A DNA stretch of 48,527 nt, taken from the NCBI RefSeq assembly GCF_001580915.1, contig NZ_LHZQ01000202.1:1-48527 (forward strand), given 5' to 3'. Made by a program: the position numbers and the translations under genes. The notes below the pieces were generated by a model. It was not told the DNA's origin and made no database searches. It was given only the letters and a program-made list of their open reading frames with translations. Below are positions 2,502 to 42,646 of this stretch, one piece after another (the stretch's first letter is position 1; the number at the start of each line of letters is the position of its first letter). The stretch is from Acetobacter tropicalis (GTDB lineage: Bacteria > Pseudomonadota > Alphaproteobacteria > Acetobacterales > Acetobacteraceae).

Positions 2502-2739
2502 GATCTGTGGTTTCCTTATCCTCAAATCTCTGTTGAAGAACCAGCAAGATCTGGCAGGCGGTGTGGCCAGTCTGCATTTTCTTCCGGAAGAGTAACAGAA
2601 TTTGTCTTGAGGAGGAGAGCTTTTCAGGCGTTTCAGTTATCAAATGGAAAAAGTTTACTTTTCGAAATAATTGACCGAAATCATGCTTTTTTTCTGGCAT
2701 TATCCTGGCAACAGAGCCGCAAGAAGGAAGTGATTCGTA
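2502..2739. promoter_or_regulatory. Divergent promoter region, TonB receptor / PhyH oxygenase
   Basis: This 238-bp spacer separates two divergent starts and must hold both promoters. A clear GAAGGAAG ribosome-binding site lies about eight bases before the ATG at 2740. An AT-rich tract at about 2640-2700 is the likeliest promoter site. No confident operator was seen. Confidence 0.4.
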
Positions 2740-14402: not shown

Positions 14403-15755
14403 TCATGTGCGTTTCATGTGCCTGTCAAATAAAAGACGTCCGCCAGTCATCAGTGCGATGATCGAGACGTAAAGCCCCAGAAGCAGGGGTTTCTGGAGAC
14501 CCACCAGTCCAAGGCAGAGGCCTGTGGCGAGCAGGGCATAGGCTGGGATAAAGGGATAGCCTGGAGCATGCCAGGAGCGCGGCATGTCGGGCGCGATCTG
14601 ACGCAACTTGAAGAGGCTGGCCATGGTCATGATATACATTGTCAGCGCGCCAAAAACAGAAAGCGTGACGATGGATGCAGTCAGGCTTTCTCCTCCGAAT
14701 GATACGATATCATCACTGAAAATGGCCAGAATGCCCACGCCTCCACAGACCAGAACGCTCGTATAGGGTGTCTGAAAACGCGGCGATACCAGCCCCATCC
14801 AGCGTGGCAGGCCGCCCCCCTGTGCAAGGGCGCAGATCTGGCGCGCGCAGCCCATGATAATGGCATGCAGAGAGGCAACAAGGCCAAATAGCCCGAGCCA
14901 GACAAGCATGTGAAGGTAAGGGCTATGTGAACCAACAACTGTTTTCATGGCAAACGGAAGTGGGTCATTGAGATTGGCCAGATTGCGCCAGTCTCCGACA
15001 CCACCAGCAAGAATCATGACGCCAAAAGACAGGAGCACCAGCGTCACGATGGCGGCGATATAGGCGATGGGCAAGGTCCGTCTGGGTGAACGGGCTTCTT
15101 CGGCAGTTAAAGCTACGCCTTCGATGGCAAGGAAGAACCAGATTGCAAAGGGAACAGAGGCTGCAATGCCCCCCAGCACTGACCAGGAGAAATGATCGGT
15201 TCCGGCCCAACCGTGTGTCACGAAACGGTGCCATGAAAAGCCGGGCCAGACCACGCCCATGAAAATGAAAAGCTCAATGATGGCGGCTACGGTTACAATC
15301 AGTTCAAAGCTTGCCGCTACCTGAACGCCCGCGATATTCACGCCCATGAAAAGCAGGTAGGCCATTACGGCACCAGCCTTGGGCGGAAGTGCAGGAAACT
15401 GCACATGCAGGTAGGAACCAATGGCCAGTGCGATGGCCGGCGGCGCGAAAATGAACTCAGCCGTGGAAGCATAGCCCGCCACAAGACCGGCACGATGCCC
15501 GAAAGCGGCACTGACGTAGACGAATGGACCGCCTGCCTTGGGCATGGCGGTTGTAAGTTCAGTGTAGGAAAAAATCAGAGCAAGATACATAAGCGCCACG
15601 AAGATGGTCGCAATCAGGAAGCCCAGGGTGCCAGCGCTTGCCCAGCCGTAGCTCCAGCCGAAATACTCACCGGAAATGACAAGACCTACGGCAATCGCCC
15701 ATAACTGAACGGGGCCGAGGCTCTTGGCCAACTGCGGTTTGGAATGGTCCGTCAT
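14403..15755 (-). CDS. eat: Ethanolamine permease (APC family)
   Basis: This inner-membrane amino-acid/polyamine/organocation transporter has about twelve hydrophobic segments over 450 residues. It resembles the ethanolamine permease subgroup: LWAIAVGLVISGEYFGWSYGW near the start, then MPKAGGPFVYVSAAFG and the EGVALTAEEARSP region. The ATG at 15755 overlaps the stop of eutC as ATGA, which fixes the start and indicates coupling. The open frame extends to 15866, but that part is the end of eutC in another frame. Import of ethanolamine for the lyase encoded just upstream is the natural role. Confidence in the family is high, and the substrate rests on resemblance plus context. Confidence 0.88.
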   Translation of the reverse strand: MTDHSKPQLAKSLGPVQLWAIAVGLVISGEYFGWSYGWASAGTLGFLIATIFVALMYLALIFSYTELTTAMPKAGGPFVYVSAAFGHRAGLVAGYASTAEFIFAPPAIALAIGSYLHVQFPALPPKAGAVMAYLLFMGVNIAGVQVAASFELIVTVAAIIELFIFMGVVWPGFSWHRFVTHGWAGTDHFSWSVLGGIAASVPFAIWFFLAIEGVALTAEEARSPRRTLPIAYIAAIVTLVLLSFGVMILAGGVGDWRNLANLNDPLPFAMKTVVGSHSPYLHMLVWLGLFGLVASLHAIIMGCARQICALAQGGGLPRWMGLVSPRFQTPYTSVLVCGGVGILAIFSDDIVSFGGESLTASIVTLSVFGALTMYIMTMASLFKLRQIAPDMPRSWHAPGYPFIPAYALLATGLCLGLVGLQKPLLLGLYVSIIALMTGGRLLFDRHMKRT

Positions 15756-16507
15756 GGGGTTTTGGTTTCCGGCAGAAGTGTCATGTTCGTGCTTTCGTCC
15801 TTGAGGGCCACGCCCGTATATCCCAGTTTGCGGGCACTTTTCAGAAGCCAGCAAAGCTTGTGGCAACCTTCTCCAGTCGAGAGGCCACGAGCATGGATGT
15901 TGGAGATGCAGTTACGTTCGGAATCTTGCCGCCCAACATGCGGGTTCCATGTCATGTAAAGGCTGAGGCTGTCTGATACGCTCAGTCCTGGACGTTCACC
16001 GATCATCATGACGACACAACGCACGCCAAGGAGAGCGCCAATCTCGTCTCCCAGAGCCACACGGGCATTATGGGCGACTACGAGTGGGGCAATACGCCAT
16101 GTGTGAGCAAGGGCGGCTCGGACGGCGTTCTGAAGGGGGGGGGCTTGTCGTTCAACGGCAACGGCTGACAGCCCATCCGCAGCGACGAGCACAACATCCC
16201 ATGGACCGGCCGGTGCAATCTGTTTCAGGAGTGCGATGGAAGGCCCATCAAGTCTGCGTCCCAGATCAGGCCGACGCACGAATTCAGAGCGATCCTTTGC
16301 TTGGCTTCGTACCTCAATAAAAGAATCTCCGACGGCCAGCTTAGCAGGATCAAGACAGGCATGGACAGCACGGCGAGCACATGCATGGGCGGCCTGCAGG
16401 GCGCGGACTTCGGACCCTGCAATGCTATCGCCCGTTCGTGGTAGTCCTATGCGCGCGTGCGTGTAACGTCGTAACGGTCCCCAGGGATCCTGGGCGAGCT
16501 GGCTCAT
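15752..16507 (-). CDS. eutC: Ethanolamine ammonia-lyase small subunit EutC
   Basis: This is the cobalamin-contacting light chain of adenosylcobalamin-dependent ethanolamine ammonia-lyase, which yields acetaldehyde and ammonia. At 251 residues it is slightly short of enterobacterial EutC but complete. Family stretches include ARIGLPRTGDS, DLGRRL, VVLVAADGLSA, MMIGERPGLSVSDSLSLY and the C-terminal NCISNIHARGLS. Its ATG overlaps the eutB stop (ATGA). A run of nine G (16135-16143, read as C on the coding strand) encodes the PPL of RQAPPLQ and is slippage-prone. There are no microcompartment shell genes nearby, so the enzyme should work free in the cytoplasm. Confidence 0.95.
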   Translation of the reverse strand: MSQLAQDPWGPLRRYTHARIGLPRTGDSIAGSEVRALQAAHACARRAVHACLDPAKLAVGDSFIEVRSQAKDRSEFVRRPDLGRRLDGPSIALLKQIAPAGPWDVVLVAADGLSAVAVERQAPPLQNAVRAALAHTWRIAPLVVAHNARVALGDEIGALLGVRCVVMMIGERPGLSVSDSLSLYMTWNPHVGRQDSERNCISNIHARGLSTGEGCHKLCWLLKSARKLGYTGVALKDESTNMTLLPETKTP

Positions 16508-17901
16508 GAACCGGCTCTGAAATTCGGTAAGGCATACGGCTGGTTCATGCGCAGGCGGGTACCATCCACAAGCGCCATCCTTTCAAGCCACGCTTCAAAT
16601 TCAGGTGCCGGACGCACGCCAAACACAGAGCGTAGGGTCAGGATGTCATGATAGGAGAGGCTTTGGTAGCTGAGCATGACGTCATCGCCACCGGGCACGG
16701 CAATCAGGAAATTCACGCCCGCGGCCGTAAGAAGCATCATCAGGGTGTCCATGTCGTCCTGATCTGTTTCCGCGTGGTTGGTGTAACAGACATCACAGCC
16801 CATCGGCAGTCCCAGCAGCTTGCCACAGAAATGGTCCTCAAGCCCCGCTCGGATGATCTGCTTGCCATCGTAAAGATATTCTGGACCGATAAAGCCCACG
16901 ACCGTATTGACGAGAAGTGGTGAATAGACACGTGCCACGGCATAGGCCCGCACCTCCATGGTCTGCTGATCCACGCCATGATGAGTACCAGACGAAAGTG
17001 CAGATCCTTGCCCTGTCTCGAAATACATGACGTTTGTGCCAACAGTTCCCCGGTTCAGTTCCCGAGCAGCCTGCCAGGCCTCGGAGAGGATACCCAGCGA
17101 AATACCGAAGCCAGAATTGGCTTGTTCTGATCCTGCGATGGACTGGAAAACCAGATCTACCGGCGCACCTTTTTCAATCATGGTAATGGTGTTAGTCACA
17201 TGCGTCAGAAGGCAGCTTTGCACAGGCATATCAAAACGCTGGCGGATATCATCAAAACGCCACAAGATATCCATTCCTCGTCCGATATGATCGGATGCCG
17301 GGTTGATCCCCAGAACCGCATCTCCAGCACCAAGAAGCAAACCATCAAGGAGGGCTGCGGAAATGCCATCTGGATCGTCAGTCGGGTGATTGGGTTGCAG
17401 ACGGGAGCCGAGACGAGCAGGAAGGCCCTGTGTGTTGCGAAATGCGCTGACAACACGCATTTTCCGTCCGACTGAAACCAGATCCTGGTTGCGCATCAGT
17501 TTGCTGACCGCAGCCACCATTTCAGGGGTCAGCCCTGGGGAAAGTTTCTCTAGGCTTGAGGTATCAGCCGCATAACTTAGCAGCCAGTCCCGAAACTGGC
17601 CGACCGTCATGTGTGAGATGGGGGTGAAAGCGGCTTCATCATGGCTGTCCATGATAAGGCGGGTAACTTCATCGGTTTCGTACGGGACAATGGCTTCCGT
17701 CAGGAAATGACGCAGTGGCAGATTAGCCAGCACTTCACGGGCGGCAACCCGTTCAACAGGGTCTCGGGCGGCAATGCCGGCCAGTTCATCTCCCGAACGG
17801 AGCAGCGAGGCGCTGGCCAGGATATGTTTCAGATCCTGAAAAACAAATGTTTCGCCTACGAGGGAAATGCGATGAACCAAAACGTCGATGTCCTGCCACA
17901 A
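16504..17901 (-). CDS. eutB: Ethanolamine ammonia-lyase large subunit EutB
   Basis: This is the catalytic heavy chain of the AdoCbl enzyme, forming a TIM barrel. It is 465 residues long and matches EutB throughout: LRSGDELAGIAA, ERVAAREVLA, GDAVLGINPASD, FETGQGSALS, VVGFIGPEYLYDGKQIIRAGLEDHF and MGCDVCYTNHAE. The start is unclear. The longest frame begins with TTG at 17901, but homologues begin about nine residues later. A second TTG at 17880, with AGGA ten bases upstream, may be the real start. No in-frame ATG is available upstream before a stop. It is followed by eutC with ATGA overlap and preceded by the AraC regulator 85 bp away. Confidence 0.95.
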   Translation of the reverse strand: MWQDIDVLVHRISLVGETFVFQDLKHILASASLLRSGDELAGIAARDPVERVAAREVLANLPLRHFLTEAIVPYETDEVTRLIMDSHDEAAFTPISHMTVGQFRDWLLSYAADTSSLEKLSPGLTPEMVAAVSKLMRNQDLVSVGRKMRVVSAFRNTQGLPARLGSRLQPNHPTDDPDGISAALLDGLLLGAGDAVLGINPASDHIGRGMDILWRFDDIRQRFDMPVQSCLLTHVTNTITMIEKGAPVDLVFQSIAGSEQANSGFGISLGILSEAWQAARELNRGTVGTNVMYFETGQGSALSSGTHHGVDQQTMEVRAYAVARVYSPLLVNTVVGFIGPEYLYDGKQIIRAGLEDHFCGKLLGLPMGCDVCYTNHAETDQDDMDTLMMLLTAAGVNFLIAVPGGDDVMLSYQSLSYHDILTLRSVFGVRPAPEFEAWLERMALVDGTRLRMNQPYALPNFRAGS

Positions 17902-17986
17902 TCCGGATATGTTCTTTGCATAATCCTAACATGGACAGAAGGACGCTGACCGCCCAGCCGACACAATTGGTTGACATCCTGCATCA

Positions 17987-19066
17987 TCACAGTTCCTTGC
18001 GGAATGCCTGGGGCGAAACGCCGTACCATTTGCGGAACGCACGGCTGAAAGCGCTGACTTCAGAATAGCCCAGAAGATAAGCGATTTCCCCAATAGACAC
18101 GCCTTTCTGGCGCAGATAGGTCTGAGCAAGGCTACGGCGTGTCTCGTCCACAAGATTGGTATAAGTAACACCCATGGATTCTAGGCGGCGTTGTAGTGTC
18201 CATCGTGGAACACCAAGTTTTTCAGCCAGAACAGGAAGCTTCACGATTCCCTGTGGCAACATGGTGCGAACTTCACGCCGAGCCAGAAGCAGGAGATCGT
18301 CTCGCCCGTCAGTCGTCAGATGCTGGGAGTGATCAAGACGCGTAAGGCTTTCGCGGAGGACCGAAAGGAGCCCAGCGTTGGCGGCAGGCATGGGGACGTC
18401 CAGACCGATGTCAGAAAACAGGAGGGCGGTCGTGCCGCGCTGGAAGAAAACGGGGGCATCAAAAGCTGCGGCATAATCTGCCGCAGTGGACTGACAGGGA
18501 TGTTCGAACCAGACAGCATCAGGATGCCAGCTCTTGCCAAGCGCCCGACGGAAGACATTGCAGAACATTCCCATGGTCAGCTCGGCGTCCTGTGCACGAC
18601 GGGAGATGAGGGGATCAGTGATGCGGTACTCAATGCGAAACCCACCAGGCATCCGGACCAGACGTGTCTGGGTAGCTTTCTGATGGTAAGGGAAAAGTTC
18701 TGCAAGATTAACGAGAGCATCTCCGAGAGTTGCGGAGGTCAGGGCGATATAGCCGATAAGGCCGAGCTGGTCGGGCTGGAACTGCTGACCATAGACAAGG
18801 CCGGTATCATAACGGCCAGACTGGCGTGCCACTTCCTCGAACAAATTGCAGTAGTCTTCCAGACGAAGCGCAAGAGTGGGTGGCAGATCGTCAGCAATCT
18901 GAAGACCCACTGAACGAGCAATGATGTCAGGGTCACATCCTTGCTGACGGATGAAGGAACTGGCACCCGTCATGGCCGCGGCCAAGACGCTGCCAGTCTG
19001 CCTGTCTGTCTGGGGAAAGGAATGCAGGCAATCATCAGTTAGGACCTGTGCAGAGAACACGGTCAT
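17987..19066 (-). CDS. AraC-family transcriptional regulator of the ethanolamine island (predicted)
   Basis: This 359-residue protein has an N-terminal arabinose-binding-like domain of the OruR/ArgR type (about 20-220) and a C-terminal double HTH (about 275-359: LPVLAEKLGVPRWTLQRRLE, then SIGEIAYLLGYSEVSAFSRAFRKWYG). It is located between the phosphatase and eutB, in the same orientation. EutR of enterobacteria is also AraC-type and senses ethanolamine plus B12. This protein shares the family but no direct orthology is claimed. A 7-bp palindrome lies in its own leader (19108-19128), and a 21-bp-spaced direct repeat lies upstream of the operon's first gene. Both are candidate binding sites. 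Confidence 0.9.
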   Translation of the reverse strand: MTVFSAQVLTDDCLHSFPQTDRQTGSVLAAAMTGASSFIRQQGCDPDIIARSVGLQIADDLPPTLALRLEDYCNLFEEVARQSGRYDTGLVYGQQFQPDQLGLIGYIALTSATLGDALVNLAELFPYHQKATQTRLVRMPGGFRIEYRITDPLISRRAQDAELTMGMFCNVFRRALGKSWHPDAVWFEHPCQSTAADYAAAFDAPVFFQRGTTALLFSDIGLDVPMPAANAGLLSVLRESLTRLDHSQHLTTDGRDDLLLLARREVRTMLPQGIVKLPVLAEKLGVPRWTLQRRLESMGVTYTNLVDETRRSLAQTYLRQKGVSIGEIAYLLGYSEVSAFSRAFRKWYGVSPQAFRKEL

Positions 19067-19107
19067 CTCTCCTCACAACCAGGACGGAGTCCGCCAGTCA
19101 TTTCTGT

Positions 19108-19128
19108 ATCGCAATATCTTGTTGCGAT
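19108..19128. promoter_or_regulatory. Inverted repeat in the AraC-gene leader
   Basis: ATCGCAA (19108-19114) and TTGCGAT (19122-19128) form a perfect 7-bp inverted repeat with a 7-bp spacer, 42 bp upstream of the AraC start. The 21-bp span fits an operator for a dimeric regulator. AraC proteins more often use direct repeats, so another regulator is equally possible. Confidence 0.4.
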
Positions 19129-19190
19129 CTAAATATAAATCCTCCTTCGGAATGAATTTTGTCAAGCATTCTGCCACGAGTAGGGGTCAG

Positions 19191-20432
19191 TTACCCCCCC
19201 AGAAGGCGGGGCGTCTGGCTTCCGAAACCTAGGGTCTCCTCTGAGGGGCACCATTCACCAGTATTGTCATCTCGCCCCTGAAGGATGAATCGGGGCGTAG
19301 ACGATGTCATCTCATTGGCTGCCCGCTGGCTGAGGGCCCCTTCCGTCCCGTCTGCCAGGCGATTGATGATCACGGACAGGCTCGTATCGGGAAAGGCGGT
19401 TTGCATGGCGGTATCCCCGCCACTGTCCCCACACACAAGAACGGGGCCGTGCCCGCGCTCCCGGACAAGCCGGTGGCGTATGGCATCGACTTTCCCTGCA
19501 CCATAGGTCAAAGGCCAGTCTGCAGCAGGTTGAGCCCCCAGCTTTCCGGAAGGCCAAGACATCCGGACACCCAAAATATTGTCAGCAGGCAAGCCGTAGC
19601 CGAAACCGGGGGCCGTGGCAAAAACCCGGACGACAGTTTCCAGAGATGCGGAACAGATGAAAACGTCAATATCTGCCTGTCTCAGGGCTGCTTGCAGGTC
19701 AGCGATTTCCGGGGTCAGACGCAACCCGTGAAAGACTTTGCATTGGAGTATACCTGATCTGCCGGATCGTTCAGGTGGGACGATATGTTCAACATATCCG
19801 ATATCACGACCGAGAGCCCAGTGATTAGCCATGGCAGCAAGAGTCGCAATATCCGTCTCCGTCATGCCGCAGAGCAGACGAATGATCCAGTATAAGGCAA
19901 CTTCTGGCCCAGCTACAGCATCAATGGCTCTATAGCTGAAAAGGAGGCGGGCCCGGAGTGCGACGAGAGCTGTGATGTGAGACGGAACGGGCGCTCGTAC
20001 GGACGACCACGCACCATACCGAGACCAGAGCTCGGTATAATCGCGGGTCATGTCCTCCACGAGATGGGAGAAACGTATCTGCTTTCCGTCCTGATTCAGG
20101 AAGTGGGGACCGAGTTCACCTTCTGGCACGTCCTGCTTGATTACATGCTCAAAACACGCGGGAGTCAGGGCAAAACTGAATGTTTCGAGCATGAACTGCA
20201 GAAGTGTTTCCTGGCAATCGCCAAAAATGCAGGTGTTATCCCAGTCGAATACGGCATAGGGCCGTTTGAATGTCTGCCTACTGACGATCAGTTCTGACAG
20301 GAGGCGCCGGTTGCGCGGTGCCCATTTCAAGGGAGACAATGGGGCGTTGTCGGTCGGCATCGCAAAAGCTGGCCTGCTTCCCATGAAAGCGGCAGTGCAG
20401 GCGAGAAAGCTTCTGCGATCAAGCGTAGTCAT
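19191..20432 (-). CDS. Exported HAD-superfamily phosphatase, predicted phosphoethanolamine/phosphocholine phosphatase
   Basis: This 413-residue protein begins with an export signal containing an Arg pair (LDRRSFLACTAAF), possibly Tat-dependent. HAD motif I is DWDNT with D63 and D65, and motif II is the Ser/Thr region VFICSAS (about 257-263). Lys314 (GAGKVDAI) and D336/D340 (GDSGGDTAM) complete the active site. It resembles the Pseudomonas PchP phosphorylcholine phosphatase type in fold and location. Its ATG overlaps the stop of the phospholipase C gene (ATGA), so the two are coupled. Together they would release a free head-group amine in the periplasm. That the product is ethanolamine is inferred from the downstream eut genes. 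Confidence 0.78.
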   Translation of the reverse strand: MTTLDRRSFLACTAAFMGSRPAFAMPTDNAPLSPLKWAPRNRRLLSELIVSRQTFKRPYAVFDWDNTCIFGDCQETLLQFMLETFSFALTPACFEHVIKQDVPEGELGPHFLNQDGKQIRFSHLVEDMTRDYTELWSRYGAWSSVRAPVPSHITALVALRARLLFSYRAIDAVAGPEVALYWIIRLLCGMTETDIATLAAMANHWALGRDIGYVEHIVPPERSGRSGILQCKVFHGLRLTPEIADLQAALRQADIDVFICSASLETVVRVFATAPGFGYGLPADNILGVRMSWPSGKLGAQPAADWPLTYGAGKVDAIRHRLVRERGHGPVLVCGDSGGDTAMQTAFPDTSLSVIINRLADGTEGALSQRAANEMTSSTPRFILQGRDDNTGEWCPSEETLGFGSQTPRLLGG

Positions 20433-22498
20433 ACGCCGTATCGGCCCATCAGAGGATCAGTTCGGCTCGGACGTCCAGTCTGAATGTGGCCAGCGAAATG
20501 CAGCATGGGTTTGGTAGTTGGGCTAAGCCGTGTGGAGGTCTCGGTCACGACGATATCGTACCAGTTGTCACTGGCGGAAATGTCCCAAGTGACCTGTGCT
20601 TCCTGTTGGGGAAGAAGAATGATCTTGCGTATATCGGAGGGAATGTAATTACTGGAAATGATCAAATTCCGCGTGGTGGAAGAAAAATTTCTGATTTTCA
20701 GGGTGATCTCATCGAAGGACTTGCCCGTTTCAAGAACAGCCTGCGGAAGATCGGTGCCTGAAAAGGCTCGGTAAAACCCGTCTGGGCCATGAAGGGTTAT
20801 TGAATAAGGCTCGTGCGCGTTGAGAAGAACGTCATGTGTGTGACGCGGACCTAAAGTGTAGTGCCGCATAGGGCGACCGTGCTCCAGAAGCTGGAAGACT
20901 GCGCCTTGCGTTCCGGTATTGGCAAGGTGGAGGCTGTGCGGGTTGGTTCTGTCGCGTACAAGGTCTGCGCTCAGCGCGTAGGGAAGTGAACGGGCGGGGC
21001 GCTGCATGATCTCCTGACGTGGCATTGTCTGTGGCTGCGGGATACTGGGCGCAGGAAGGCGGCAGGATGCCCGTGTTTCAGCCAGATAATGTTCGGTTTC
21101 GGGAAGATTGGTATTCCAGTGCAGGTCTGGGTTCGTGAAATCGAAAATACTTGTCAGGTCGCCACAGACTGTCCTGCGCCATGGGGTAATGTTGGGCGCA
21201 GGCACACCGAATCTGGCTTCGAGGAACCTGAGAACGGATGTATGGTCAAAGAGCTGAGAATTGACCCATCCCCCTTTTGTCCAAGGAGAGATGACAATCG
21301 CGGGAACACGTGGGCCGAGCCCGACAGGAACGTTCCCTAAGGCCTCCCCGTCCAATGGGACAGAACTGTAGCCCTGTAACGGATCATCGGCGCGGAGAGG
21401 CGGGACAGGTGCTGGCATATGGTCAAAAAAACCGTCATTCTCATCATAATTGAGGATAAAAACGGTTTTTGCCCAGACCTCTGGATGACGCACAAACACA
21501 TCCATCAGCCTTGAGATCAGGCTTTCGCCATATCCTGGCGGAGCATCCGGATGCTCGGACATGGCTTGGGAAGGGACGATCCATGAGACCTGTGGTAATT
21601 TTCCGGATGCTACGTCTTTCTCGAACTCTTCTACCAGAAACCGACCTTCAGAGGTGGTGCTGTTACCTGCATGAGATCCCGGAACGATCTGGCGTGCCCG
21701 TTTGTGTTGCCAGCTTTCTGCAGGAACATTCCTGAATGTGGCAAAAGACTGGAGGGGATTGTCAGTAAAATTGTCATATTCCTGATAGATGCGCCATGAA
21801 ACTCCGGCTTCCTGCAAGCACTCCGGATAGGTTTTCCAGTCAAAGGGCCTGAAGGAGGGATTATCAAGCGCGCTATCGGCCGAGGGGTTGCCATCATCGA
21901 TATTGACCGTGACCTGAGGTTCCTGGTTCCCAACAGCCAGGCCGCTCGTACCGGTAAAAAAATAGAGGCGGTTTGGATTGGTAGGGCCAAAAATGGACGC
22001 ATGGTAAGAATCGCAGATCGTGAAAGCTTCTGCTAAAGCATAGTAATAAGGGATATCCTCGCGCGTGAAGTGTCCCATGGTCATTGCGGTCTTGTGCGGA
22101 ATCCAGACGTCCCATTCGTTCCAGACGGCTTGGGAAGCTTTCCAGCTATGATCAAGGCTAGCAAGGCAGGCTGAAGATGTATGAACCGTGTTCAGGCGGA
22201 AGGGCAGGATCTGATGGCCGTGTCCGTCCGGCTGGGCAAAGACCGAGTTCCCATCCGGCAGGGGGAGCGCACGGGGATCCCCATAGCCCCGTACCCCGCC
22301 GAGAGACCCAAAATAATGATCGAAAGATCGGTTTTCCTGCATGAGGAGCACGACATGTTGGACATCCTGGATTGTGCCCGTCGTACGTTTGGCGGGAATG
22401 GCAAGAGCCTTGCGGATGTTTGCGGGCAGGAGCGTCATGCTAGCGGCAGTGGCTCCGGCTTTCATGAAAAACCGTCTGCCCGCATTAAACTGCGACAT
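20429..22498 (-). CDS. plcN: Phospholipase C, Pseudomonas PlcN/PlcH type, Tat-exported
   Basis: This enzyme cleaves phospholipids to diacylglycerol and a phospho-head-group. The N-terminus has a twin-arginine signal (NAGRRFFMKAG, R8 and R9, then a hydrophobic run). The catalytic domain opens with HVVLLMQENRSFDHYFGSLG (E55, N56 and D60 lie in the expected metal/nucleophile region). Other family stretches include FFTGTSG, NYDENDGFFDH, VPAIVISPWTKGGWV and the C-terminal pair of PlcH-type beta domains. At 689 residues it is full length. It lies 37 bp after the TonB receptor. The named family is phosphocholine-preferring, and activity on phosphatidylethanolamine is inferred only from the neighbouring lyase. 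Confidence 0.9.
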   Translation of the reverse strand: MSQFNAGRRFFMKAGATAASMTLLPANIRKALAIPAKRTTGTIQDVQHVVLLMQENRSFDHYFGSLGGVRGYGDPRALPLPDGNSVFAQPDGHGHQILPFRLNTVHTSSACLASLDHSWKASQAVWNEWDVWIPHKTAMTMGHFTREDIPYYYALAEAFTICDSYHASIFGPTNPNRLYFFTGTSGLAVGNQEPQVTVNIDDGNPSADSALDNPSFRPFDWKTYPECLQEAGVSWRIYQEYDNFTDNPLQSFATFRNVPAESWQHKRARQIVPGSHAGNSTTSEGRFLVEEFEKDVASGKLPQVSWIVPSQAMSEHPDAPPGYGESLISRLMDVFVRHPEVWAKTVFILNYDENDGFFDHMPAPVPPLRADDPLQGYSSVPLDGEALGNVPVGLGPRVPAIVISPWTKGGWVNSQLFDHTSVLRFLEARFGVPAPNITPWRRTVCGDLTSIFDFTNPDLHWNTNLPETEHYLAETRASCRLPAPSIPQPQTMPRQEIMQRPARSLPYALSADLVRDRTNPHSLHLANTGTQGAVFQLLEHGRPMRHYTLGPRHTHDVLLNAHEPYSITLHGPDGFYRAFSGTDLPQAVLETGKSFDEITLKIRNFSSTTRNLIISSNYIPSDIRKIILLPQQEAQVTWDISASDNWYDIVVTETSTRLSPTTKPMLHFAGHIQTGRPSRTDPLMGRYGV

Positions 22499-22534
22499 GT
22501 GTGATCTCCTTGCCCGTCGGAAGGGTGGTGAGCC

Positions 22535-24946
22535 TCAGAACGCTGCTGCGATGGAGCCGAAATACTGCCGCGGTGCCCCGATAAGGAAGGACTGGTTGTC
22601 TCCGGACATGGAGTTTCCGTTCTCGCCGGCGGTGGCAATATAGGTTGTATTGGTCAGGTTATAGACATTGAAACTGAAGGTCAGGTCCTGCAGGAAGCCG
22701 AGGTGCCGATTATACTGGCCCAGATTGCGCAGATGATATTGTGCGCCAGCACTGGTCAGCCAGTAGGATGGAATGCTCAGATCACCAGTATAGGTATAAT
22801 TGCGCTTTCCCATATAGATCGTGTCGATATGAGCGCTGAGGTCACGCCAAGTGTAAGACAGGCTCGCCTTATACATGAAGCGCGGATAATTGACGATCTG
22901 TTGTCCGGCAATGGCATAAGTTGTGCCGCCACTGGTTACGTTCTGGTCGTAGGTTGCATGATTCCAACTGATGGAGTTGGACAGAGACAGTCCTGTTACA
23001 GGAGTGATAACCAGAGCTGCATCCACGCCGTTCATCGTGACACCGCCCACATTCATAACAGCGGAATAAGGGTTTGTGATCGGGCCGCTCGTTATCTGCT
23101 GCAGGCGGTTGTGGAAATTCGTATGGTAAGCGTAGAGGCTGGTGTTCAGCAGATGGTCCACGTAGCGATAACCGACAGCGAAGTTCCAGTTGGTTTCCGG
23201 CTTCATCTTTCCGGCCCCCATGGTCTGGTCGTAAGCGCTCTGGGTCATTGCGAACGGCGAGGCGCCGCCTTTGTAGCCTGCGATCGGGTATGATTTTACG
23301 TTCTCGGCAACATCGAAGAATAGTTCGTGGTTCTTGAGAAAATGCCAGTCTCCACTAATATGCGGGAGGAACGCGCGGGCAGTTGTTACCGTGCCGCTGG
23401 CAAGGGCATCCGTGCCAGTATAGGCTGGAATGTTGGTGGTTTGATCGCCAGTTACGGATTGCCAGAGGGATTTGAAGCCAAAATGCAGGCTTACATTCGG
23501 CAGGACGCGATAGGTGTCCTGAACGAACGCCGTGAAGCTATTGGACGAGAAGCTGTCGCCCCACAAATGGGCCGTTGGGTCAGGCAAGGATCCCATCGAG
23601 TTGATCGGGTTACCTTCGCCAAGAACTGGTTCCTCGTAGGCGTTGCGGCCTACATTCACATGATAATGTTCGTACCAGATACCAGCGCTCAGATCATTAT
23701 TGGCGATCTGGTAATGTAGGGCTGAGGTGAAGCCTCCGCGCTGGGCATGTTCGAGGGTGATCTGGTCGAAAATCGGAGATCCATTCGGCATTAAGCCATC
23801 CGAATACCACGGATAGGGGCTGGCCCATGTGCCGCGTCCATACTGCCCCTGCGCATAAACGGTCGATTTCCAGCGTAGGCGTGATGTCAGGGCGAAGTCC
23901 ATGTTCAGGCCACCAAGATAGTCACGTTCGACCGTCCCGCCATCATAATATGAGGCATCATACGGGTCCGAGAGCTTGCTGTAGCCAGCAGGAAGGGCTC
24001 CTCCTGGCTTGTTGTTGGCGGCAAGTGCCAGCTTATAGGCTTTCTCATAGGCTTTGGGAGTGCCGATGAAATTGTCCAGACTGGAGCCATAGTTGTTCAG
24101 CATGTCAAACGACAGATCCTGATATTGATACTGATCAAGGTCGCCCCAGTCGAAGATAGCGGAGATATGGCTGTCTTCTCCGATGGGCTGCACGATCTTG
24201 GCATTGACCTGCTGCATGAACTGATTGCCGCCACCTTTCCATTTATTAAGGTTGTTGCGCATGTAGGAGGCATACATCCGCGTACCGGTCTTGTTGAGGT
24301 CTCCGGTATCGAAACGAATGAAGGTGTGCATGTTCATGCTGGACCCGAAGGTTTGGGCGATTTGGCCGCCAGCTTTATGCTTCGGGTCGCTGGAGAAATA
24401 TTCGATCGATCCACCAAGGTTGGAGGTGCTGGCAATAGCTTCTGCGCCTGCGCCTTGGGAAATCACCATATGCCCGATATTCTCGGAAGCGATGGCATTA
24501 ATGATATTGAGGCCGTTGAAGGAATGGTACTGCTGATCCCCAAGTGGGATGCCATCAAGGGTCATGCCGACCTGATTCTGCAGGAAACCATGCATGAAAA
24601 ACATCTGCGACCAGATGTCTACACCCTGTGCGTCAGCAGATTGGAGCATGATGCCTGGCAGCTTTCCCAGCACTTTGAGAACACTGGTTCCAGGTGTTTC
24701 AGCGCGAATAGCTGCCGAACCCACCACTTCCTGCACACCATGTGATCGATGAGCACCCGTGACGGAAATGGCTTCGCTTGAAGACTTGATAACGGCGGTT
24801 TTCCGGCCGGATGCAGTCGGAACGCGCCTTGATTTATCCGTTGTAGGCAGACGGTTTGTGGGGTGATGCGGCATTGCTGCTGCGTTCACACTGAAGCTGA
24901 GAATTGAAATGGCAATGACAAGAGGGGGGCGGTACCCGGATAGCAT
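22535..24946 (-). CDS. TonB-dependent receptor of the ethanolamine/phospholipid island
   Basis: This 803-residue outer-membrane receptor has an N-terminal signal (IAISILSFSVNAAA), a linker and a plug domain: LKVLGKLPGIML, FFMHGFLQNQVGMTLDGIPLG, ISQGAGAEAI and STSNLGGSIEY. A long beta-barrel ends in GAPRQYFGSIAAAF, with the terminal Phe typical of this export class. It is first in the operon, with GAGGAG upstream of the ATG and 37 bp before the phospholipase. It is clearly homologous along its length to the receptor at 31174, which heads the ectoine operon. The ligand is unknown. Position suggests a lipid-derived or head-group compound, or cobalamin for the lyase. Confidence 0.9.
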   Translation of the reverse strand: MLSGYRPPLVIAISILSFSVNAAAMPHHPTNRLPTTDKSRRVPTASGRKTAVIKSSSEAISVTGAHRSHGVQEVVGSAAIRAETPGTSVLKVLGKLPGIMLQSADAQGVDIWSQMFFMHGFLQNQVGMTLDGIPLGDQQYHSFNGLNIINAIASENIGHMVISQGAGAEAIASTSNLGGSIEYFSSDPKHKAGGQIAQTFGSSMNMHTFIRFDTGDLNKTGTRMYASYMRNNLNKWKGGGNQFMQQVNAKIVQPIGEDSHISAIFDWGDLDQYQYQDLSFDMLNNYGSSLDNFIGTPKAYEKAYKLALAANNKPGGALPAGYSKLSDPYDASYYDGGTVERDYLGGLNMDFALTSRLRWKSTVYAQGQYGRGTWASPYPWYSDGLMPNGSPIFDQITLEHAQRGGFTSALHYQIANNDLSAGIWYEHYHVNVGRNAYEEPVLGEGNPINSMGSLPDPTAHLWGDSFSSNSFTAFVQDTYRVLPNVSLHFGFKSLWQSVTGDQTTNIPAYTGTDALASGTVTTARAFLPHISGDWHFLKNHELFFDVAENVKSYPIAGYKGGASPFAMTQSAYDQTMGAGKMKPETNWNFAVGYRYVDHLLNTSLYAYHTNFHNRLQQITSGPITNPYSAVMNVGGVTMNGVDAALVITPVTGLSLSNSISWNHATYDQNVTSGGTTYAIAGQQIVNYPRFMYKASLSYTWRDLSAHIDTIYMGKRNYTYTGDLSIPSYWLTSAGAQYHLRNLGQYNRHLGFLQDLTFSFNVYNLTNTTYIATAGENGNSMSGDNQSFLIGAPRQYFGSIAAAF

Positions 24947-25368
24947 AATATGGTCGTCTCCTCGTAAGAGCGGGAAGATGTGCCCCCTCGGTTCGATACG
25001 AATGTGTTACATTTTTTCTCTACCAAATATCGTGATGCGCAGTCTTGACGGGGCGACACACTTTCTTGACAGGCCGTAATGATGGCGTGCGTCTTCAGGC
25101 CTCGTTGTAAGGAATAAGGAATGGTGCTTCTATCGACCGAAAATTCAGCCTGATCCACAAACGGAAGAGTGCTGATACTATGGTCCAAGGTGATACCAGA
25201 CTGCACGAAGGCTCACTCGGCCAGAGTAACAGGAGGTGATGCGTAGGTGCTTAGCCCTGAGTTTCAAGGATTAAATTAATGATGAATTTTTCCGGTTCGA
25301 GATGTTGTCAGTGAGTACTGATTATAATGGAGATAAGTTGCGTAGCCGTGAGGGAGGAGCCAGTTCTT
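24947..25368. promoter_or_regulatory. Upstream region of the phospholipid/ethanolamine operon
   Basis: This 422-bp stretch separates the first gene of the island from an IS remnant. It must carry the operon promoter on the minus strand. It contains the 21-bp-spaced direct repeat at 25043-25076. No credible gene is seen. Confidence 0.5.
25043..25076 (-). promoter_or_regulatory. Direct repeat, candidate AraC-family operator
   Basis: On the plus strand, TCTTGACGGGGCG (25043-25055) and TCTTGACAGGCCG (25064-25076) match at 11 of 13 positions. They are spaced exactly 21 bp, that is two helical turns. This is the arrangement AraC/XylS proteins bind. It lies about 97-130 bp upstream of the TonB receptor start, suitable for an activator site. 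Confidence 0.5.
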
Positions 25369-25995
25369 AGTTTTTCTTTGACGGAATCGTTCCATCATCC
25401 TGCCGTTTCGCCTTGATAAATTTCAGCCTCTAGCGCGCATGGCGGTCCTTGAGGGACCGCTTTGCGGGGTTGTCCTTGCAAGCCTGATGATACGGTCCGC
25501 TCAGAGACCCGCCTTCTCCGCGTTTATATTGCGCTATTTTGGAGCAGCCACCAGCGTTGCGTCCAAGATCTGACCTGACATCAGTAATAACTGGCGTTAC
25601 GTAGGGAGGCATCAAAGCGATTAAACAGTACGTCACTTACACCAGTCTGTGTCAGTCGTTCGCGAAACAGCCAAACCGTTTGGGCATCAGGCACGCGGTG
25701 CAATAGCCCAGACCAAGGAAACGCATAAAGGAGAGTAGGTCGTTTATGAGGTATGCCGTCCGTTCGTCGGGCAGGTTGTTCAGCGTCTGGATCACCAGGA
25801 TCTTGAACATCAGAACCATATCAAAGGGCGGACGGCCGCGTTTGCTGCCGTCCGCATACGCCAGAACCTTGTCCAGATCAGGGCGGGATGCCTCAAAATC
25901 CACAGTCCGGGAAAATGCTTCAAGCTGAACCCCCAGCCTGCTCAACCGGACAAGGTGCTCTTCAATATCAAAGAAGCCCGGAGGCTTTATGATTC
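25369..25995 (-). pseudogene. Decayed IS5-family transposase remnant
   Basis: Reading the minus strand from about 25995, an IS5-type N-terminus is visible (KPPGFFDIEEHLVRLSRLG, then DLDKVLAYADGSKRGRPP and DERTAYLINDLLSFMRFLGLG). The frame is then lost, where homologues continue with the RVPDA..TVWLFRE region. Further pieces follow in shifted frames (DVRSDLGRNAGG, DNPAKRSLKDRHAR) and, after a TAG where Trp is expected, LKFIKAKRQDDGTIPSK. There are several frameshifts, at least one stop and no C-terminal half, so the element is dead. It lies between the ethanolamine and ectoine islands and marks an old insertion site. Confidence 0.8.
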
Positions 25996-30316: not shown

Positions 30317-31173
30317 GATGAAAGTTGTTCAGAAAAATACGTCGTCACGCCGATTTGTTTTACAGATGATCTCTTGTAATCTGTTTGTAAAGAAAACAGG
30401 AAATCGGGTTTTGTTCTGTAAAGCCTTGCGATAACGGGCAAAGCCCCCTTTTTTGGAAGTTTCATCTGTTTCCTGCTCACGTGCCTGACGAATCGTTTCC
30501 ATAGCACTGTATCATGATGCTGAACTGTTTTCCCGCATTTTGATACGTTGACGATATGGATTTCTACGCATATATGAAAATTAATGCAGAATTTCATCGC
30601 CAAAAGAGACATCGGAATGGCTCTTCTTTTTGTTATTTTTTAGTAACGTTATGCCTCTGAGGGATATTCTCTGCGATACCGCATTCCTATATGAATGAGA
30701 TTGTAATGATAATAAAACGATTTTTCTCAATTATCGTTTTTTTTAGGAATGCAAAAAATCCTTACGTTAAAAAACAGGGAGGTCACTCAAAACGCTGGTC
30801 GGGATACTGTTCTGAAAGAGGATGGGGCTAAGGACTGCAGCCAGTATCTTTCAACGCGTGGACGCAACGTTGCCAAGGAGACTAAAACAGAGGCGCATGC
30901 TTCACTACGAAAATATGTGAGAAGTACGCTTATAGCGCATATTATCCTCTCATATTTGCATCGATATGATGCAAAGAGTCTCCCGCGCTTTGTTATTCTG
31001 GTTTCGATATGAAACTGGAAAAGGCGCGATCCCCAGATCTTCTCGGAATGCTTTCTCCAGCCATGCCATCGCTGTGAGATACGCCCAATACGTAATCTGG
31101 GTTTTCGTTGCCGACTGTTTCCTGACGAGACGCATGGACCAGTGGCCCTTGGCCTTTGATGAGGAACGTACGG
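30317..31173. promoter_or_regulatory. Long divergent regulatory region of the ectoine island
   Basis: This 857-bp gap lies between divergent eutB and the TonB receptor. Short open frames on both strands overlap each other and match nothing recognised. The region is AT-rich around 30540-30760 and contains a hairpin with T-run at 30714-30744. AATGATAAT at about 30705-30713 resembles a partial Fur box. The long, unassigned leader (30745-31173) could hold a regulatory RNA or a lost gene. Confidence 0.4.
30714..30744 (+). terminator. AT-rich hairpin with T-run upstream of the ectoine TonB receptor
   Basis: AAAACGAT (30714-30721) pairs with ATCGTTTT (30733-30740) around an 11-base loop, followed by more T to 30744. 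It resembles a weak intrinsic terminator about 430 bp before the receptor start, so it could act in the leader. The low GC content makes it uncertain. Confidence 0.35.
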
Positions 31174-33537
31174 ATGAAACAAAGCACTTTGTGCCCTTTG
31201 CTTTTATGCTCGACGCTATTTGTGTCGGTCGGGGGCTCTGAAAGTCTCGCAGCTGAGTCGCATCAGAAAGCGAAGGGCCATGTGGCGTTGCCCAAACAGG
31301 CCGGCGTCAAAAAGATTACGAGAGCAAAGGGCCGAGCGCGCGCAGCAATCTCTTCTGGAGAAGAGTCTGTAAATGTTGTCACGCGCCGCGCCTCCCATGG
31401 CTCCAATGAAATCATGACGGCGCGTGACATAGAAAAATTTGTTCCTGGCACCAATCCTCTCAAGGTGATTGCGCAACAGCCGGGTGTGCTCTTAACAGCA
31501 GCCGACCCTATGGGGCAGGATAGCTGGGCGACACAGCTCTACGTTCGCGGTTTCTTTCAGGACCAGATTGGCTTTACCCTTGATGGTATTCCACTTGGCG
31601 AGCTGACTTACAGAAACTACAATGGTCTGGGCATCAATCAGGCGATCTCACCTGATAATATCAGTCGGATGGATGTCTCGCAGGGGGCAGGGGCGGTTGA
31701 TACCCCCAGCACCAATAATCTCGGCGGTGCGATTAGCTTTGTTTCCATGGACCCGACACGGAAGCGGCAGATTGATATTAGCCAGACGTTTGGAAGCAAT
31801 AGTGCTTTTAGAACATTCGTGCGTCTCAATTCCGGCGATCTCAACGCGTCCGGTACACGGTTCTTCGTTTCCTATGCGCGTAGCAATAGCGAAAAATGGA
31901 AAGGTTCCGGCCCGCTGTTTGATCAGAAAGTGAATGCCAAATTGGTTCAGCCGGTTGGTGAGAACAGTGAAATCTCGGCATTTTTTGACTGGGACGACCA
32001 GCAATATCTCAGCTATCAGGACCTTTCTCTTAATTATCTGCACACATTGGGGCCACGTCTGGATAATTTTTATCCAAATTATAAAGGGGCTTATCTTGCT
32101 GCGCAGGGTATTTTCACAAACGGGCAGGATAAAAGCAATGATCCGCTGGATGCCATGTTCTATGATTCAAGTGCAATCGCTCGGGATTATCTGGGTGGGC
32201 TAAAAGCGCATATTACACTTGCCGACAACCTGACATGGGATAGTGTTGCGTATGGTCACTCAAACCTTGGATGGGGCGGCTACGCCAGTCCATTTGCGTC
32301 CTCACCAAATGGTGCCCCCCTGCGTTATCAGGAACATCAAGGATCCATTGCCCGGTATGGCTTTACGACGGGCGTAACATATCAGATCGCTCACAACACG
32401 ATTAACAGTGGCGTATGGTATGAAAATAACCGTTATATGATGGATTATTTTGCGTATCAGATGCCGCTCCTTGGTGAAGGAAAGCCATTGAATCCGCTCT
32501 CCATGAGCAGTTTCAGAAATCCGATTGGGCAATTGTGGGGCACAACGTACAACACAAACACGTTTGAATATCACCTTCAGGACACCTACCGTATTCTCAA
32601 AAATCTAAGCGTACACGCTGGCTTCCGCTCCATGCTGGTTACAACTCATGGTGGTGCAACAGCGAATGATGTGGCTTATACAGGGCAGTCTGAGCTTCCT
32701 TCTGGTTCCTTGACCACAGCCGCCGCTTTTCTTCCGCACATCAGCGCCAACTGGCGTTTCCTGCCGGGGCACGAACTCTATTTTGATATCTCCCAGAACA
32801 AGCGCGCTTATGCTCAGGGTGGTTATCAGATGGGCCAGGCCTGGGGTGTAACCAATCAGGCAACGTTCCATGAATTGCAGAAAACCATCAAACCCGAATC
32901 AGATTGGGCTTATGAATTGGGCTATCGTTATAATTCCAACCTGATTTCGGCGTCGCTTAATCTCTATCGGGTTAATTTTTTCAATCGTCTTCAATCCATG
33001 GCATCCGCATCCATTGTCGATCCGGTTTCTACCGTTGTGAATGTTGGATCCGTTACGATGAACGGTGTTGATGCTGCTTTTACAATCAGGCCAATAAAGA
33101 ACCTTTCCATATATAACAGTATTTCCTATAACGATTCTCGTTACGGATCGGATATAACATCGGCGGGTGTGGTGTATCATCAGGCGGGAAAGAAGGTCGT
33201 GAACTACCCGGATTTCATGTACAAAGCGGGTGTGGATTATACCTATAAACGAATGTCGGCCCATTTTGATGTCAATTATATTGGCAAACGGTATCTGAGC
33301 TATATGAATGATACATCCGTTCCGGGCTACTGGCTTGCCAATCTTGGGGCAAAGTATCAGTTGGGAACAAAAGGCTTCCTGAAAAACATGACGTTTGAAT
33401 TCAACGTCTACAACCTTTTCAATTCCTCTTACATCAGTACGATGGGAGAGAATGGAAACCCCTTTATGGGAGATTATCAGAGCTTCATGATTGGTGCGCC
33501 CAGACAGTATTTCGGGACAGTACGTGCCAGATTCTGA
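31174..33537 (+). CDS. TonB-dependent receptor heading the ectoine operon
   Basis: This outer-membrane receptor has about 787 residues from the chosen ATG. The open frame begins with a TTG at 31156, but the ATG at 31174 has GAGGAA seven bases upstream and leads straight into a signal peptide (CPLLLCSTLFVSVGGSESLAA). Plug motifs are LKVIAQQPGVLL, LYVRGFFQDQIGFTLDGIPLG, DVSQGAGAVDT and STNNLGGAISF. The barrel ends in GAPRQYFGTVRARF. It is paralogous to the 22535 receptor along its length. It lies 57 bp before doeA in the same operon, which suggests outer-membrane uptake of ectoine or a related compound. Ectoine is small enough for porins, so the need is unclear. Confidence 0.9.
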   Translation: MKQSTLCPLLLCSTLFVSVGGSESLAAESHQKAKGHVALPKQAGVKKITRAKGRARAAISSGEESVNVVTRRASHGSNEIMTARDIEKFVPGTNPLKVIAQQPGVLLTAADPMGQDSWATQLYVRGFFQDQIGFTLDGIPLGELTYRNYNGLGINQAISPDNISRMDVSQGAGAVDTPSTNNLGGAISFVSMDPTRKRQIDISQTFGSNSAFRTFVRLNSGDLNASGTRFFVSYARSNSEKWKGSGPLFDQKVNAKLVQPVGENSEISAFFDWDDQQYLSYQDLSLNYLHTLGPRLDNFYPNYKGAYLAAQGIFTNGQDKSNDPLDAMFYDSSAIARDYLGGLKAHITLADNLTWDSVAYGHSNLGWGGYASPFASSPNGAPLRYQEHQGSIARYGFTTGVTYQIAHNTINSGVWYENNRYMMDYFAYQMPLLGEGKPLNPLSMSSFRNPIGQLWGTTYNTNTFEYHLQDTYRILKNLSVHAGFRSMLVTTHGGATANDVAYTGQSELPSGSLTTAAAFLPHISANWRFLPGHELYFDISQNKRAYAQGGYQMGQAWGVTNQATFHELQKTIKPESDWAYELGYRYNSNLISASLNLYRVNFFNRLQSMASASIVDPVSTVVNVGSVTMNGVDAAFTIRPIKNLSIYNSISYNDSRYGSDITSAGVVYHQAGKKVVNYPDFMYKAGVDYTYKRMSAHFDVNYIGKRYLSYMNDTSVPGYWLANLGAKYQLGTKGFLKNMTFEFNVYNLFNSSYISTMGENGNPFMGDYQSFMIGAPRQYFGTVRARF

Positions 33538-41426: not shown

Positions 41427-42326
41427 TTATCTGATTTCATCGGCTAATGCATGTGATTTCTGTTTCCCATAAAAACGTGCTTCAGCTTCTGCTGGCGGGA
41501 TGTTTCCAATGGAGGACAGGAGCCGCCAATTGTTGAACCAGTCGACCCATTTAAGCGTTGCCAGCTCAACAGCGTCCCTGTTTTTCCATGGCCCCTGCCG
41601 ATAGATCCGTTCGGTTTTGTAAAGTCCGTTAATGGTCTCCGCGAGAGCATTATCATAGGAACCCTCAACACTGCCGACAGAAGCAACAAGACCCGCTTCA
41701 GCCAGTCTTTGTGTGTAGCGAATGGACACATAAGTGACAGCCGCGGTCGGAATGGTGGGTCACTTTTCCCTCAGGTTGCCTCTGGCACAGAGCCTACTCA
41801 AGGGCATCCAGCACGAAGTCGGCATGGGCCGTTGAAGAGACACGCCAGCCCACAATAACCCGGGCAAACACATCAATGATGAAGGCCACATAAACAAAGC
41901 CCTGCCAGGTGGAAACGTAAGTAAAATCCGAAACCCAGAGCCTGTTGGGGGCTGGTGCATGAAACTGGCGCTGCACCAGATCCTGTGGACAGGGCCGTGC
42001 CGGATCGGGCCGTGTGGTTCTGACCTCCTTGCCACGAATGACGCCTTTAGCCCCATCCAGCGCATCAGCCGCTCTACCGTGCAGCGGGCGACATCCAGAC
42101 CTTCACGTTTGAGCTGATACCAGACCTTGCGCGCTCCATAGACGCAAAAATTATCGTTCCAGACCCTGCGGATTTCATGACACATCTCTTTGTTTTTCTG
42201 GTTGCGCAAACAGGGATTTTTCTGTCTCGCCTGATAAGGATAAGAGGCAGATGGTGCAATCGACAGAACCCTGCAGATTGACCCGACAGCATATATCTGC
42301 CGATGCTCCTCAATGAAGCGTGTCAT
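41427..42326 (-). pseudogene. IS3-family orfB transposase, inactivated
   Basis: The orfB start overlaps the orfA stop (ATGA at 42323-42326). The N-terminal HTH_21-type segment is intact (MTRFIEEHRQIYAVGSICR, KVWYQLKREGLDVARCTVE). Near 41976 the frame shifts to RLWVSDFTYVSTWQGFVYV with the first Asp and IIDVFARVIVGWRVS. A TAG interrupts soon after DALE. A second shift occurs near 41745, just after HHSDRG. The last frame has SYDNALAETINGLYK, with the catalytic Glu. Two frameshifts and a stop mean no functional transposase. Confidence 0.85.
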
Positions 42327-42646
42327 GGCCTGAAGATGCGGTCGAGCTCTCCTTCCGCAAAATATGCTGACGCTTTGCGCAGGATTTCATTGGCCGGCCG
42401 CAGTTCGCGGTTCTCTCGCTCCAGTTGCCTGATCTTCTCCCGATCAGGAAGATCACTTACCGCAGGTGCATTGGCCCGCTCATGCAGACGGGTCCATTTT
42501 GACAGCGTGTCAGGATGAATATCCAGCTTTGGCGCTATTATCATCACTGCGGACCAGCGTGATGGATGGTTCTTCTCTTCCTCCAGAACCATGCAGGCTG
42601 CACGGTCACGAAATTCAGGCGGAAAACGCTTCGATTTGTTGCTCAT
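42323..42646 (-). CDS. IS3-family orfA (transposase HTH subunit)
   Basis: This 107-residue protein has a Tnp_1-type helix-turn-helix (RFPPEFRDRAACMV, LDIHPDTLSKWTRLHE) and a C-terminal leucine-zipper-like segment (EKIRQLERENRELRPANEILRKA). It is intact. It would normally be fused to orfB by programmed frameshift, but orfB is broken. Confidence 0.88.
   Translation of the reverse strand: MSNKSKRFPPEFRDRAACMVLEEEKNHPSRWSAVMIIAPKLDIHPDTLSKWTRLHERANAPAVSDLPDREKIRQLERENRELRPANEILRKASAYFAEGELDRIFRP

Follow-up and report, generated by a model that had tools for sequence, protein, structure and literature searches.

Can the release of a phospholipid head-group and its consumption be encoded in one block of genes under one switch? 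This question is raised by a stretch of 48,527 nucleotides from Acetobacter tropicalis (contig NZ_LHZQ01000202.1 of assembly GCF_001580915.1), hereafter the window, to which all coordinates refer. At 14403-24946 it carries an island of seven intact open genes, all on the minus strand, in the order TonB receptor, phospholipase C (PLC) of the PC-PLC family, exported-type HAD phosphatase, AraC-type regulator, EutB, EutC and ethanolamine permease (Table 1). An initial annotation had named these same-direction genes and read them as one phospholipid-to-ammonia system; curated models confirmed the families. We consider it probable that the island is a compact scavenging unit in which one ethanolamine regulator stands over both a lipid half and a eut half, leading from phospholipid through ethanolamine to ammonia. 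Gene families, gene order, conservation, the common operator and the Pho-type promoters that some relatives have were established by computation. In vinegar-group bacteria, such a unit would tie head-group release to head-group use, apparently through one switch. In the following, G denotes a genome and L a locus stretch: G000 is the genome of the window, L002 the locus of A. senegalensis, L003 that of Dm-62 and L191 that of G361.

Conservation of the island and its operator

From the genome collection, 80 EutB loci were examined, a number of whose contigs end early. Two of them have the lipid genes nearby and in the same order, in Acetobacter senegalensis LMG 23690 and Gluconobacter sp. Dm-62. 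DNA homology with A. senegalensis covers 14446-25180 at 93.9%, and with Dm-62 14439-20484 at 75.5% and 20859-25081 at 80.8%. It stops at the edges of the unit, in a comparison that reached roughly 2.7-4.7 kb beyond the TonB end and 4.5-7.9 kb beyond the permease end. Beyond the edges only two kinds of short match occurred (50 and 111 bases), with window 31549-31999 pairing with the island TonB gene. The initial annotation had made its proposal depend on a neighbourhood conserved elsewhere in the Acetobacteraceae, and this is what was found: the neighbourhood is real and is conserved in three complete copies. As the block is kept as a unit in other genomes, it is more than a chance neighbourhood. 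The unit apparently moves between genomes as a single block; no plasmid record in PLSDB covers the island.

Among 299 Acetobacteraceae genomes, EutB was detected in 161, the PLC family over its cut-off in 47 and a relative of the HAD phosphatase (E<=1e-20) in nine. These nine are the genome of the window, four with a stand-alone module described below and four with only a paralogue of 37-41% identity. Within the genus (49 genomes) a HAD match was present in 29. The genome of the window and G328 (A. senegalensis, whose sequence overlaps L002) carry the island, G307 and G302 carry the module, and 25 have only a match of 34-41% that was taken as the paralogue. In the genus of Dm-62, two of 26 genomes have a HAD match, the second being G361. 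Its island (L191:3925-12516) consists of TonB-PLC-HAD-AraC-permease; eutBC is missing and both operator places are kept. Since lipid half, regulator and permease are retained there without EutB, the two halves are separable. This version could be a decayed one, or the compound taken up could be put to a different use.

The eut half also occurs alone. In six genomes (G169, G272, G030, G060, G242 and G218) an araC gene is divergent from eutB-eutC-permease, an arrangement not seen in the stretches examined of the EutB loci of G295, G189, G157, G008, G197 and G040. The island regulator is 43-47% identical to five AraC proteins adjoining stand-alone eutBC in Acetobacteraceae. Between araC and eutB, the stand-alone loci hold a two-box site, TGTYAA-N5-TGT-N8-GTCAAG. 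This pattern was drawn up after seeing the island TonB site and five eut loci; the site of G218 was found by the pattern without having been used in making it, and was then used in the matrix described below. Over the 299 genomes, the pattern gave seven exact sites in seven genomes (one in the reversed control). Six lie directly before eutB, and the seventh, in the genome of the window, lies before TonB-PLC-HAD. There the TonB site was the sole match, exact or with up to one mismatch, the reversed control giving two sites at up to one mismatch. Likewise, with up to one mismatch allowed, each of the four carriers (G361 included) has one site, always exact and always before the TonB gene (controls 2, 0, 2 and 1).

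A matrix was made from five eut sites and no island site (L138 was left out as a near copy of L131). With this matrix the TonB site scored 23.5 bits and ranked first in the window, where the next site reached 11.8 bits; across 20 random windows the top score was 16.2 bits. The corresponding sites of A. senegalensis (24.5 bits) and Dm-62 (23.8 bits) each ranked first in their own locus. As a single box, TGTCAANNAANTGTGTCG occurs exactly at just two places in the whole genome of the window, at 25054-25071 before the TonB gene and before eutB. The first box before eutB is exact also in A. senegalensis and has one mismatch in Dm-62; in G361 a first box with one mismatch precedes the permease gene. 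The araC-eutB gap of Methylobacterium nodulans reads TGTCAA-N16-GTCAA, with the same spacing (by eye, no statistics). The sites of the island and of the stand-alone eut loci suggest that lipid half and eut half have an operator in common, and an operator this rare would probably make the island one regulatory unit. Co-expression of the lipid genes with eutBC, on which the initial annotation had also let its proposal hang, would agree with this at the sequence level.

Relatives of the lipid half and their promoters

The initial annotation had missed the common operator, the sharp edges of the unit and the phosphate-type relatives of its front half. These relatives are TonB-PLC-HAD modules standing alone in G226, G189, G073, G184 (HAD gene at a contig end) and G307 (loci L122-L125 and L177), and without the TonB gene in G302 (L178). 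They share with the island the same proteins in the same order, at 59-63% identity for the PLC, 46-51% for the HAD phosphatase and 33-35% for the TonB receptor. No eut genes were found in the stretches examined, and G184 and G073 have no EutB. Genes for PstS and a phosphate-selective porin adjoin the module in G226 and G073, two of the modules with Pho repeats.

Pho-type repeats of 11 bases were scored by a scheme set by hand around the Escherichia coli consensus. The number of shuffles reaching the score was 0/300 in L122, L123 and L124, 1/300 in L177, 5/300 in L125 and 41/300 in L178; the repeats are clear in three of the six modules. Out of a possible 21, the pstS promoters scored 19.9 (L124) and 19.1 (L122), and the top three module promoters 18.4-19.0. 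Unlike the island, the modules thus have a Pho-type promoter in at least three of six cases and no eut operator (at most 6.3 bits with the island-free matrix). Pho-box control of the island promoter was rejected, as shuffles reached its score in 226/300 cases in the window, 271/300 in L002, 47/300 in L003 and 288/300 in L191. Twelve other PLC genes were scored for Pho boxes; L208, L214 and L221, where the motif for locating the gene failed, are not among them. L217, L218 and L220 stood out (0, 1 and 3 of 100 shuffles), all three outside the PLC group of the island, and the rest gave background, though some scored stretches may lie within the upstream gene.

In a PLC tree of 26 rows, two of them with long branches, the PLCs of the four carriers group together with full support (100/100), within a larger set of 16 rows that also includes the six module PLCs and six others. 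The lipid half apparently descends from, or has a common ancestor with, a TonB-PLC-HAD module with phosphate-type promoters. As the modules elsewhere have no eut site and some have Pho repeats, a phosphate-type module apparently came under the ethanolamine regulator. Because the branching order within the set of 16 is not settled, the direction of this change, from phosphate-type to amine-type control, is one that we infer. It would be a case of a nutrient-release module that seemingly changed its control. A looser neighbourhood was observed in G218:C171 (L216 with L180), where a TonB-PLC pair lies about 10 kb from a eut locus with a two-box operator. It was rejected as a carrier, given the missing HAD gene, the distance and the absence of a clear Pho repeat (14.6 versus a shuffled mean of 14.0).

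Relatives of the HAD phosphatase were also searched for in PLSDB, where seven records contain one. In M. nodulans pMNOD01 it follows directly after eutB-eutC-eat. In Fusobacterium vincentii the order is eutB-eutC-shell-aldehyde dehydrogenase-eutT-like, then one opposite-strand gene, the HAD relative and an iron alcohol dehydrogenase gene. This arrangement agrees with the printed eut locus of F. nucleatum, which is shown with a HAD-like hydrolase (PMC11796344). In both lineages the relative has the catalytic motifs and lies near eutBC; unlike in the island, no PLC match was found in these stretches (L199, L204), and Fusobacterium uses a microcompartment.

The paralogue mentioned above (34-41% identical) is found in the genome of the window at G000:C67:952-2214 (L126); the genus has 27 places of this kind in all. 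The two paralogues that were aligned (L126, L127) do not have the motif III acids, so that they are possibly non-catalytic relatives. This gene was rejected as part of the system, as no PLC adjoins it in seven loci (L126-L130, L181, L182); the neighbours scanned include genes for a tRNA synthetase (L126, L127) and ketol-acid reductoisomerase (L127).

Predicted route and its alternatives

In the case of the lipid half, the PLC matches TIGR03396 over its full length (positions 3-688 of 688) and well over the curated cut-off of 580.25 bits. PLC and HAD phosphatase both have twin-arginine-type N-termini, read by eye, and would be exported. The HAD protein matches PF12710 (35 bits, cut-off 27) and has all superfamily motifs I, II and III (DWDNT, SAS, GK, GDSGGD). 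Its nearest solved relative, PDB 4gxt, is filed as functionally unknown. The phosphorylcholine phosphatase 4as2 is a distant match over a partial alignment, also with a profile (6.3e-18). By these matches PchP is the nearest characterised relative among solved structures, and it hydrolyses phosphorylethanolamine besides phosphorylcholine (PMC3170909). The TonB receptor alone gave no PDB match in a single-sequence search, and a profile of seven relatives gave nine weak ones, including an unnamed TonB receptor, YncD / PQQ transporter and siderophore or metallophore receptors. With no match to the single sequence and only such mixed ones to the profile, a role as B12 receptor was rejected.

In the case of the eut half, permease and EutC (NF003971, 282.3 bits, cut-off 230) pass equivalog cut-offs for ethanolamine and EutB passes a subfamily cut-off (NF011649, 691.4 bits, cut-off 554). 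The island's EutB is the only EutB match in its genome. No microcompartment shell gene was present among the genes scanned around the eut genes, a genome-wide search for shell genes not having been made. No acetaldehyde dehydrogenase is among the seven genes, and the flanking genes scanned encode other enzymes, the flanking open reading frames having been scanned in part. In Acinetobacter baumannii the use of ethanolamine involves no microcompartment, and the lyase is active with no need of the reactivase (PMC9426561). CobN is over its cut-off in all three complete carriers (G361 was outside this search), so that synthesis of B12 is likely. Control by a cobalamin riboswitch was rejected, Rfam at gathering thresholds giving none in the window. 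The best NCBIfam model for the regulator was QhpR (280.4, cut-off 250), which belongs to amine dehydrogenase; among the 20 models hit none was EutR, whose presence in the library was not checked.

These components can be arranged into a route, for which we infer the ligand of the regulator, the substrates of the PLC and the HAD phosphatase and the cargo of the TonB receptor. The regulator would sense ethanolamine, or a product of it, and turn on two promoters with the same box. From the first promoter TonB-PLC-HAD would be expressed, the exported PLC splitting phospholipid into diacylglycerol and a phospho-head-group, from which the HAD phosphatase, likewise exported, would strip the phosphate to yield ethanolamine and inorganic phosphate. 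From the second, eutB-eutC-permease would be expressed, so that ethanolamine could be imported and split by the B12-dependent lyase into acetaldehyde and ammonia. The lipid half would thus carry an operator of the ethanolamine regulon in place of the phosphate-type promoter of its relatives. The reading of the initial annotation is supported in part, by the gene families and order, the operator, the linkage of HAD and eut genes in two lineages, and CobN and the absence of a BetA over its cut-off in the three complete carriers. Its chemical claim, a predicted route from phospholipid to ammonia, is likely.

Several observations weigh against this scavenging route. The TonB site, at 23.5 bits, lies far below the training sites (36.5-41.7 bits, by construction). 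The island eutB promoter has no second box, with a matrix score of about 0 and rank 43 in the window (17 in L002, 12 in L003). A single box with up to two mismatches is found at four sites in the genome versus nine in the reversed control, so that only exact matches carry weight. The complete carriers found are only three, and the genome of G361 keeps lipid half, regulator and permease without any EutB match. The model matched by the PLC, TIGR03396, bears the name phosphocholine-specific, and a second PC-PLC-family gene exists in the same genome (G000:C176:34777-36822, 830 bits; L206), on a branch of the tree distant from the island PLC. For five of the seven HAD relatives in PLSDB, no eut gene came up at distances of up to about 9 kb: none was found by sequence search in B. 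stagnalis, B. cenocepacia, P. phymatum and B. arboris, nor by annotation and sequence in Peribacillus.

Different explanations can be built on these observations. The lipid half might still serve mainly phosphate acquisition, as PLC and phosphatase together yield inorganic phosphate; its position before the eut genes would be secondary and ethanolamine a by-product. This agrees with the clear Pho repeats of three of six modules, two of them adjoining pstS and the porin gene, and with the module genomes that have no EutB. It is nevertheless unlikely, since in all four carriers the island promoter has the eut operator, while its Pho score does not stand out from shuffled sequence. Alternatively, PLC and phosphatase could act chiefly on choline lipids, the choline being lost or used as osmoprotectant, while eutBC handles free ethanolamine only. 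The family name of the PLC and the distant match to phosphorylcholine phosphatase speak for this. However, BetA-type choline dehydrogenase is over its cut-off of 732 in none of the three complete carriers (weaker relatives reach 475-499 bits; G361 was outside the search) versus three of the six module genomes, other choline routes not having been searched. HAD relatives also lie within eut loci of two other lineages, and for non-specific PLC / PC-PLC enzymes, activity on phosphatidylcholine and phosphatidylethanolamine has been described (PMC7862535). We therefore hold a choline-directed function to be quite unlikely.

That the unit serves the route of another amino-alcohol or amine head-group, for which EutBC is not always needed, would account for G361 and for a regulator over the QhpR cut-off. 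Against it stand permease, EutC and EutB, all over ethanolamine-model cut-offs, and the similar regulators adjoining eutBC in relatives, which leave this explanation very improbable. A chance neighbourhood without functional link could be argued from the low number of complete carriers and from the 78 of 80 EutB loci without a PLC or HAD relative in their stretch (profile check, contigs partly short). The same order, the homology ending at the unit edges and the rare operator in common make this hardly credible, the operator already contradicting it.

Beyond the preferred reading of a scavenging unit, a wider proposal holds that a phosphate-starvation PLC module was captured by an ethanolamine regulator to form a moving seven-gene unit from phosphatidylethanolamine to ammonia and acetaldehyde. 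It also holds that the HAD family of 4GXT is an exported phosphoethanolamine phosphatase that serves the Methylobacterium and Fusobacterium eut loci as well. We see the chances of this joint proposal as evenly balanced. For the phosphatase family of 4gxt, structurally solved yet uncharacterised, the island suggests a function that can be put to the test; it also offers a defined operator for an AraC regulator without a description found in the literature searched.

Known systems, gene calls and surroundings

The closest known logic is that of the GbdR-PlcH-PchP choline regulon, to which the island looks like an ethanolamine counterpart in one cluster. In Pseudomonas the PlcH, PchP and choline genes are presumably scattered, whereas the island gathers its genes in one place, a TonB receptor and the catabolic lyase among them. 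In P. aeruginosa the regulator of choline catabolism controls a phospholipase of the PC-PLC family and a HAD phosphatase for the head-group (PMC12323605, PMC3170909); in the island their counterparts would be under a regulator of ethanolamine catabolism. Besides GbdR, plcH of P. aeruginosa is controlled by SphR and PhoB (PMC12323605, with Wargo 2009 among its references). In the same species secreted phospholipases free ethanolamine, whose uptake and use are under their own regulators, and the regulators for ethanolamine and choline uptake are separate (PMC13415123). Use of ethanolamine freed by phosphodiesterases, again under its own regulators, has been described (PMC5821096).

Short eut loci without microcompartment, under EatR or EutR, resemble the island in having permease and EutBC with no adjoining shell genes; unlike the island, they come with no mention of a phospholipase or head-group phosphatase in the accessible parts of the papers (PMC5821096, PMC9426561). 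The aldehyde dehydrogenase of the P. aeruginosa version, which not all such loci have, is absent from the seven genes, and the island regulator is of AraC type in contrast to the sigma-54 EatR. The literature search gave no paper joining PLC with eutBC in one locus and none on PLC with an ethanolamine permease. As most subscription journals were outside its coverage and papers were available in part, this is weak evidence of novelty.

Coordinates are collected in Table 1. The gene identities of the open reading frames in the initial annotation stood, with the start of the permease as the point to be corrected: as listed, the frame begins too far upstream (TTG 15866), and the likely start is ATG 15755, overlapping the eutC stop by 4 bases. 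Overlaps of 4 bases are found at PLC/HAD, EutB/EutC and EutC/permease. From this layout two transcription units would be expected as a minimum, one covering 24946 to 19191 and one covering 17901 to 14403; the regulator gene lies between them.

Table 1. Features of the island in the window.
Feature	Position	Strand	Evidence or remark
Two-box operator TGTCAAGAAAGTGTGTCGCCCCGTCAAG	25044..25071	-	97 bases upstream of TonB start codon
TonB-dependent outer-membrane receptor, 803 aa	22535..24946	-	PF00593 8.5e-25, PF07715 1.3e-7
Phospholipase C, PC-PLC family, 689 aa	20429..22498	-	TIGR03396 762.5 bits; PDB 9gy2 4.4e-156
HAD phosphatase, 413 aa; predicted phosphoethanolamine phosphatase	19191..20432	-	4gxt 3.4e-45; 4as2 5.7e-8 (single sequence); HAD motifs
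AraC-family regulator, 359 aa; predicted ethanolamine-responsive activator	17987..19066	-	PF12625 + HTH_18
First operator box TGTCAACCAATTGTGTCG before eutB, second box degenerate	17959..17976	-	exact match to TGTCAANNAANTGTGTCG
EutB, ethanolamine ammonia-lyase large subunit, listed start TTG	16504..17901	-	PF06751 6.4e-210
EutC, ethanolamine ammonia-lyase small subunit	15752..16507	-	PF05985 1.9e-79
Ethanolamine permease, Eat type, start corrected	14403..15755	-	TIGR00908 497.3 bits (cut-off 381.75)

Directly outside the island, a transposase fragment (PF05598) lies in a gene-poor gap at 25655-25993 (minus strand) and might bear on the movement of the island. Three more TonB receptor genes are present in the window, at 180-2525 (minus), 31156-33537 (plus) and 45028-47478 (minus). 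An ALIL pseudoknot (RF01497, 78.5 bits) at 42252-42368 on the minus strand overlaps a small HTH_21 open reading frame and is presumably an insertion-sequence frameshift element.

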